Source of the DNA: Candidatus Anammoxibacter sp.
Lineage (GTDB): Bacteria > Planctomycetota > Brocadiia > Brocadiales > Anammoxibacteraceae
DNA length: 64,000 nt
Direction: 5' to 3'
Assembly (NCBI GenBank): GCA_021777055.1
Contig: JAIQZO010000055.1
Location: 34,780 to 98,779 of the forward strand
Part shown: one piece after another, positions 46,225 to 47,329 of the stretch
Layout of the letters: each line of letters begins with the position of its first letter
Position numbering within the stretch: the stretch's first letter is position 1
Notes under the pieces: model-generated
Seen by the model: the letters and a program-made list of their open reading frames with translations, nothing else
Database searches by the model: none
What the model was told of the DNA's origin: nothing
Made by a program: the position numbers and the translations under genes

Positions 46225-46590
46225 CATAACTAATCAATATTAAGAATTTTATGACACAAAGTATTGTAGCGTGCAGAATTGTTTGTACAATATTGTGTGT
46301 TTTTCTTGACATTATAGGAACTAACACTATAATTTAGAAAATTTGAGTTAAGATTTTCAGGCATTACAAGGTGCTACATATTGCAACATAATGCGCCAAC
46401 CGCACAATATCTTGTGTTTTGTTTGCCGTTGACTGATCTAACTTTAGAATATAAAAAATTTTTATTTTTTTATATTAAGTATTTTTAAGAATATTACGAT
46501 ACAAAATGTTGTAGCATGTAAAATTGCTTATACACTATTTTGTGTTTCTTTTGACATTGCGTGATATAACTCTATAATTCAGACAGCACG
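46225..46590 (+). promoter_or_regulatory. Triplicated ~122-bp regulatory region: three sigma70-like promoters, each with a pair of NrdR-box-like sites
   Basis: -35/-10: TTGACA(46306)-16-TATAAT(46328); TTGACT(46429)-15-TATAAA(46450); TTGACA(46551)-16-TATAAT(46573). NrdR-like 16-mers (consensus acaCwAtATaTwGtgt) at 46254/46285, 46371/46402 and 46499/46530, each pair 31 bp apart centre-to-centre. Confidence 0.72.
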
Positions 46591-46674
46591 GCAAAAGAGG
46601 GGCTTATTATGCCTGATTTGTGTATATCTTAATTTTTATTATTGTTTTAACTTTTATGAATGAAAGGAATTAAT

Positions 46675-47097
46675 ATGGTAAAATCTACGTTAATTAATGT
46701 AAAAAGTAATGATAAACTCAATGGCTTACAAGACGGCGGACAAGATATCATTGAAGAGAGTATAAACCTATTTATAACTGCAGTTGAAGAGACTGATAAC
46801 CTGAAGATTGTAGGTACCTCTTTTAATAACGACCAAAAAGAGATATTTATAATTGACGACACAAATGATACCAGTGAGCATACAGAAGTAGTTATTAGTG
46901 AAATAATTGAAAAAGTAAAGAATATAGAGGTCGCAAGGGAGTTCGTTAAAGTAATAATGGGAGAAAGATCACCAGTTATCTTAAACGGAATAACTAGAAT
47001 AGTAGGATACTTCTCAAAGGTAAACAACTGGAACAAATCAAAGATAAGCGAACTTAATGACAGAAGAAAAGGTGAATACGGCGTAAGCAATTCATAA
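46675..47097 (+). CDS. Small stand-alone protein with class III ribonucleotide reductase (NrdD)-like C-terminal glycyl-radical tail
   Basis: 140 aa from ATG 46675 (AAGGAA RBS at 46664; the upstream ATG at 46660 would include the RBS). C-terminus GITRIVGYFSKVNNWNKSKISELNDRRKGEYGV resembles the NrdD RVVGY..RVQNWNKSK..E.KDR tail; no cysteine in the protein. Confidence 0.8.
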   Translation: MVKSTLINVKSNDKLNGLQDGGQDIIEESINLFITAVEETDNLKIVGTSFNNDQKEIFIIDDTNDTSEHTEVVISEIIEKVKNIEVAREFVKVIMGERSPVILNGITRIVGYFSKVNNWNKSKISELNDRRKGEYGVSNS

Positions 47098-47110: not shown

Positions 47111-47154
47111 GAAAGGCTTGTTCCACAGACAAAAAGGAACAAGCCTTTCTTTTT
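47111..47154 (+). terminator. Rho-independent terminator
   Basis: GAAAGGCTTGTTCC-acagacaaaaa-GGAACAAGCCTTTC followed by TTTTT; 14-bp perfect stem just after the stop at 47097. Confidence 0.93.
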
Positions 47155-47329
47155 AGAAACTAAACCAAAAAGAATTTTCTGTTTTTCACTCCACCAATCC
47201 TTTACGCAGCAGAAGCCACACATCCGGTTCGAATCAATCTCGTTGATTATGAATTTGAGAAATAAGTTCGCACAATTAATGTACAATATTCTAAAGGCCT
47301 AAAATACCAGGTTGTTTATGGCGGAGCCT

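Follow-up and report, generated by a model that had tools for sequence, protein, structure and literature searches.

A small gene with an NrdD-type radical tail

The window analysed here is a 64-kb stretch of DNA from a member of Candidatus Anammoxibacter, in the order Brocadiales. Its forward strand carries a short gene whose product ends in a segment homologous to the glycyl-radical tail of the class III ribonucleotide reductase NrdD, and which is preceded by two pairs of NrdR boxes. The features of the locus are as follows.

46254..46300, forward strand: distal pair of NrdR boxes, ACACAAAGTATTGTAG / GTACAATATTGTGTGT, starting at 46254 and 46285, 31 bp apart (box scan)
46306..46333, forward strand: sigma-70-like promoter, TTGACA-N16-TATAAT, just 3' of the distal box pair (read straight off the sequence)
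46402..46417, forward strand: single NrdR-box-like site, GCACAATATCTTGTGT, 14/16, top-scoring site of the 64-kb window
46499..46545, forward strand: proximal pair of NrdR boxes, ATACAAAATGTTGTAG / ATACACTATTTTGTGT, starting at 46499 and 46530, 31 bp apart (box scan)
46551..46578, forward strand: sigma-70-like promoter, TTGACA-N16-TATAAT, just 3' of the proximal box pair (read straight off the sequence)
46675..47097, forward strand: gene for the putative stand-alone glycyl-radical subunit, P0001, 140 aa (ORF translation, profile match, homologs)
46738..46956, forward strand: predicted N-terminal alpha-beta-beta-beta-alpha-alpha domain, residues 22-94 (AlphaFold2, pLDDT mostly 74-88, pTM 0.50)
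46981..47085, forward strand: NrdD-type glycyl-radical segment, residues 103-137, LNGITRIVGYFSKVNNWNKSKISELNDRRKGEYGV (match to the end of PF13597)
47005..47007, forward strand: codon GGA of the candidate radical glycine, Gly111 (within R[IV]xGY, see below)
47112..47155, forward strand: terminator-like hairpin, AAAGGCTTGTTCC / GGAACAAGCCTTT, with a T-rich tract 3' of it (read straight off the sequence)

Translation of the open reading frame gave exactly the product and the Gly111 codon that a preliminary description of this DNA had reported, and a Shine-Dalgarno-like AAAGGA at 46663-46668 favours the ATG at 46675 as the start. Since a hairpin and a T-rich tract lie 3' of the gene, it is probably expressed as a single-gene transcript. 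With no cysteine among its 140 residues, the product has neither the catalytic cysteine nor the zinc motifs of NrdD, as had also been noted; the catalytic barrel, the thiyl cysteine and the zinc cysteines, all absent from the small protein, are present on an NrdD encoded on contig C10 of the same genome. Between two genomes of the window's family, synonymous change in the small gene is far above replacement change (pS 0.71, pN 0.22). In the Brocadiales the gene is unlinked to nrdD, and no gene neighbours were found to be common to the window and the other small-gene loci of the order. In the family member G001 and in Scalindua, 2-hydroxyglutaryl-CoA dehydratase/BadFG-ATPase-like genes lie 3' of the stand-alone gene (L286:5400-8847; L288:7670-11015); they do not occur in the window.

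Comparison with the Pfam NRDD profile (PF13597) confirmed a match to the C-terminal end of NrdD: residues 103-132 align with positions 533-561 of the 562-position model (E 3.2e-5), with a score of 23.2 bits that falls just under the curated gathering cut-off of 26.2. Such a low score is expected, because the tail can align with only about 30 of the model's more than 560 positions, and the NCBIfam NrdD model (TIGR02487) agrees (E 9.9e-5). Homolog matches were obtained in 57 of the 59 genomes of the order, including that of the window (the match in G046 being an intact NrdD and not a stand-alone protein), and the tail, TRIVGY...S...NWN.SK..EL.DR...Y, is invariant in an alignment of 22 sequences, which argues that the NrdD-profile match is not a chance one. 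Many intact Brocadiaceae NrdDs have tails that are 66-73% identical to residues 103-137. The glycine is thus held throughout the orthologs examined, both in this alignment and as part of R[IV]xGY in 85/85 distinct stand-alone ORFs from cellular genomes. The preliminary description also raised the possibility of a regulator mimicking this domain. A protein of that kind, which would inhibit NrdD or titrate NrdG while carrying no radical, could also suit NrdR-box control and carriage by phages (see below), but this reading is very unlikely given that every one of these cellular copies keeps the complete radical motif and that the NrdDs described below have no other radical site.

Several other identities were considered and rejected. 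No match to PF01228 (Gly_radical), which would indicate membership of the GrcA/PFL group, was obtained at E <= 1; the match to Pfam Tad5 (E 0.02) was below cut-off; and the sole PDB sequence match was to a purine phosphoribosyltransferase (E 0.25). AlphaFold2 modelled the small protein with a mean pLDDT of 68; the model comprises the domain at 22-94, a low-confidence loop bearing the glycine and a C-terminal helix. A Foldseek search of this model against the PDB returned nothing at E <= 0.001, and the N-terminal domain is therefore left unnamed.

The NrdR-box consensus used here, ACACWATATATWGTGT, goes back to the work of Rodionov and Gelfand. The distal and proximal pairs are the only ones in 64 kb with a 31-bp spacing and both boxes at >= 11/16, and the nrdR operon on contig C10 has a pair at -219/-188 whose spacing is likewise 31 bp. 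Spacings of 31 and 32 were tested in 61 regions upstream of stand-alone genes, one locus being represented twice among them. A shuffle p <= 0.025 was reached by the best pair in 49/61, and in 59/61 the best pair was spaced by 31, not 32. When spacings from 17 to 59 were scanned, 31 was the best in every family. Published NrdR-box spacers are mostly 15-16 bp, that is 31-32 bp from start to start, and NrdR prefers the 15-bp spacer (PMC12051234). Some Brocadiaceae possess second, divergent stand-alone paralogs (L082, L087, L110 and L111); no NrdR-box pair was found upstream of the three that were scored (L082, L087 and L111), which serve as an internal contrast. These box pairs suggest dNTP-linked control of the small gene rather than control by oxygen stress.

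NrdDs without a radical glycine in the Brocadiales

As the preliminary description had stated, the window contains neither nrdD nor nrdG; a search of the rest of the genome located both on contig C10, in an operon with the gene order nrdR-nrdD-glutaredoxin-like (grx)-nrdG, in which the partners NrdR and NrdG2 were both called over cut-off. The C10 NrdD (802 aa) keeps the ATP-cone, the barrel, the active-site cysteines and the zinc ribbon, and retains Cys278, the two finger-loop cysteines 481 and 482 (ACCR) and all four zinc cysteines. The corresponding finger-loop sequence in T. maritima is SCCR (PMC9669993). None of cysteines 278, 481, 482, 745, 748, 759 and 762 varies among 77 NrdDs, whether these are intact or not. 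The tail is another matter: it reads YGVSSNSCCSKKVNLWDRSK where intact relatives have YGISRIVGYFSRINNWNKSK, and the protein ends in ...TCPYCGGFNVYGVSSNSCCSKKVNLWDRSKVKEVAQRYKDESTIS versus ...NVYGISRIVGYFSRINNWNKSKIGELADRHKG in those relatives. NSCCS replaces RIVGY, the radical glycine and its tyrosine having both become cysteine. A Gly-less NrdD and a separate glycine-bearing protein are therefore encoded within one genome. No class I or class II reductase (PF02867) was found in this genome or in G001; if the two assemblies are complete enough (about 93%), the C10-type NrdD would be their only reductase. Given an NrdD without its radical glycine and no class I/II reductase found, the missing radical is most likely provided in trans by the small protein. 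We consider it very probable that the small gene codes for the subunit that carries the radical in a two-chain, or split, class III ribonucleotide reductase.

The glycyl loop is degenerate in 25/25 NrdD tails examined from four of the five Brocadiales families, namely f1 (Candidatus Anammoxibacter, the family of the window), f2, f3 and f4 (Candidatus Scalindua); the family codes were tied to these names by contigs in common with named records. The residue at the glycine position is Cys in f1 and f3 and Ser, Gly, Asn or Asp in f2, where the NrdDs of G008 and G013 keep a lone DGY with the rest of the motif gone; in f4 NrdDs, the loop is shifted at this position. In the fifth family, f5 (Brocadia/Kuenenia-type, Brocadiaceae), the NrdDs keep SRIVGYFSR or a near variant, and nearly all genomes also encode the stand-alone protein. 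One f5 NrdD (L058, from G039) reads SRIGDYFSR, with RIGDY instead of RIVGY and hence Asp at the glycine position; the stand-alone protein is present in this lineage, and the radical glycine has apparently been lost recently. Identities in the core and in the loop are 0.85/0.33 in f1, 0.86/0.66 in f2, 0.86/0.39 in f4 and 0.90/0.93 in intact f5 NrdDs. The core thus remains constrained, and drift of the loop is seen wherever it has seemingly lost its function.

One might suppose that the Gly-less NrdDs work as aminoacyl radical enzymes with a Cys, Ser or Ala radical, the small protein being an accessory. Aminoacyl radical enzymes are also superfamily members without the canonical glycine, and Ala, Ser or Thr radicals do exist in the glycyl-radical superfamily (PMC11528403). 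Here, however, no consistent residue occupies the glycine position across f1-f4 and G039, the site being unconserved (Cys, Ser, Gly, Asn, Asp or none) and a separate glycine being available, and the loop is absent altogether in other Planctomycetota and Elusimicrobiota; this explanation is extremely improbable.

It is equally hard to credit that the Gly-less NrdDs are dying genes whose association with the small protein is accidental. The NrdD core is under strong constraint between f1 genomes (pN 0.12 vs pS 0.85), and the search in f1 found no further reductase. The stand-alone gene was detected in 27/29 genomes of f1-f4, the search failing to find it in G002 and G003, and a Gly-less NrdD without a detected stand-alone gene is known in three cases: G002 (96% complete), G003 (77%) and G110 (73%). 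Gene death would suit G002, in which the Gly-less NrdD (L064) occurs with no detected stand-alone gene and with a class II reductase, and where decay of the class III system is possible.

Relatives beyond the Brocadiales and in phages

A scan of the genome collection and a phylum search showed that stand-alone relatives also occur in Elusimicrobiota and in Planctomycetota outside the order. Many other planctomycete NrdDs end, or continue into unrelated sequence, right after the zinc ribbon and have no glycyl loop; a loop-less NrdD and the stand-alone gene occur together in many of these Planctomycetota. In Elusimicrobiota-type loci the two genes are adjacent. The order is grx-nrdG-nrdD-stand-alone in L149 (nrdD of 783 aa, ending in CGSQNVPGVSWIEEIKG) and nrdG-nrdD-stand-alone in L142/L250 (nrdD of 792 aa, ending in INGVNEIYHCEC), and L151 covers the end of such an arrangement. 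The stop of the truncated nrdD is separated from the ATG of the stand-alone gene by about 130 nt in L250, 72 nt in L149 and 31 nt in L151. The AlphaFold2 model of the truncated L149 NrdD had a mean pLDDT of 63 and was set aside as evidence. The two halves of the split pair are accordingly connected by genetic linkage in Elusimicrobiota and, as judged by sequence, by the co-regulation that the NrdR-box pairs indicate.

On the NrdD tree, the glycine state changed at least seven times. The stand-alone gene accompanies 39/42 Gly-less and 12/20 intact NrdDs (Fisher p 0.003), a comparison that ignores relatedness and selective sampling, the genomes outside the order having been chosen partly by the presence of the stand-alone gene. 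An independent-pairs test on the same tree, with 3 pairs on starred branches, was not significant, the pairs being too few. In NrdDs of other types (L264 from G086, L263 from G280 and L265 from G333:C81), the glycyl tail is a short ORF directly downstream of or overlapping the main frame, and these may be further independent splits, or frameshifts. A 91-aa ORF in G418 (L282:960-1232) carries an E. coli-type NrdD glycyl tail, RRITGYLVGTLDRFNNAKHAEVEDRVKH, and an intact NrdD of the same E. coli type is also found in that genome.

Relatives were found at 60 loci in a scan of IMG/VR contigs (L292-L351). At 59/60 the match is a small ORF by itself, about 90-215 aa long, and at the remaining one, L350, it is an intact NrdD. 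A search of 40 viral contigs with the NrdD model found no NrdD piece besides the small protein in 39 of them. In four viral contigs the stand-alone gene lies among portal, head-morphogenesis, head-decoration or terminase genes, and such structural and packaging neighbours indicate that the contigs checked are genuine phages or prophages.

An 81-kb phage contig, G453 (L382 = G453:C1:45000-56500; L332), combines a stand-alone gene of its own with an nrdD in an interrupted 1630-aa frame. Profile pieces are spread through this frame, and its C-terminus, ending in ...DYCENCNSGDVEGIEYYQ, has no glycyl loop; the interruptions are possibly inteins. Phage nrdD genes split by introns, inteins or homing endonucleases are likewise in pieces (PMC3653736), but they are interrupted genes, whereas the small protein described here is separate and conserved, with an N-terminal domain and promoters of its own.

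A probable two-chain reductase and known radical donors

The preliminary description had proposed a detachable NrdD-type radical domain analogous to GrcA/YfiD, acting as a spare part. The first half of this proposal is well supported, and none of the three outcomes that were to count against it was obtained: the profile match, the invariant glycine and an NrdD with its activase were all found. GrcA/YfiD and T4 Y06I are likewise small separate proteins with an RVxGY-type radical segment that acts in trans, and phage T4 carries a version of GrcA, just as viral contigs carry copies of the small protein. A close precedent for radical supply in trans is provided by E. coli with a full-length PflB G734A, in which formate is made only if GrcA is present (PMC12338860). 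In contrast to the PF01228 segment of GrcA/YfiD, the tail of the small protein is of the NrdD type; the GrcA partner loses its glycine to oxygen, whereas the NrdD here lost it by evolution; and the small gene, unlike GrcA/YfiD, has NrdR-box pairs.

The second half is very unlikely if it means that the small protein does no more than rescue oxygen-cleaved NrdD, and it is probably wrong for this genome, whose NrdD lacks the radical glycine that could be damaged; elsewhere, the loop is wholly missing, and the NrdR-box pairs speak against oxygen-stress control. In this genome, the small protein appears to be an obligatory subunit and not a means of repair. By analogy with the GrcA precedent (PMC8683613), a spare-part role would fit the f5 Brocadiaceae, in which an intact NrdD coexists with the small protein, and it is also favoured by three Elusimicrobiota-type genomes (G419, G421 and G423) that have both. 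As of 2021, validated spare parts numbered just two, YfiD and Y06I, both for PFL, others being speculated (PMC8683613). Our search of the open-access literature found no description of an NrdD spare part or of a class III reductase whose glycyl domain forms a chain of its own.

The two-chain reading draws on computed evidence, mostly from MAG sequences, comprising the loss of the glycine, an invariant glycine in trans, NrdR-box pairs common to the small gene and the nrdR operon, the adjacency in Elusimicrobiota and the failure to find another reductase. From these sequence comparisons we infer physical binding, activation by NrdG and catalysis by a two-chain enzyme. The small protein would dock on NrdD via its N-terminal domain (residues 22-94), which we take to be the docking part, and its C-terminal loop would enter the site once filled by the tail of NrdD itself. 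NrdG would then abstract a hydrogen from Gly111 of the docked protein, and the resulting radical would generate a thiyl radical on the finger-loop cysteine of NrdD. The usual class III NrdD is one chain; here, with NrdD, NrdG2 and NrdR all present as partners, the ATP-cone, barrel and zinc ribbon are on one polypeptide and the candidate radical glycine on another. The split class II enzyme NrdJa/NrdJb is also a reductase in two polypeptides (PMC9669993), but class II relies on adenosylcobalamin and has no glycyl radical to part from the barrel.

In the scenario towards which we lean, several lineages have separated their class III reductases into a catalytic chain and a detachable chain bearing the radical, possibly via an intermediate with an intact NrdD plus a spare, and phages of such hosts carry the small chain only, so that one short gene could keep the host reductase charged during infection. 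Its carriage by phages suggests that this short gene governs the dNTP supply of the host. If true, a natural two-chain form would offer a ready system for the study of radical transfer between proteins, with a radical subunit that could be exchanged, mutated or labelled alone, and it would bear on the question, open in the GrcA field, of whether proteins of this kind serve further glycyl radical enzymes (PMC8683613). In anammox bacteria that have no other reductase, the small protein would then be indispensable for DNA synthesis.
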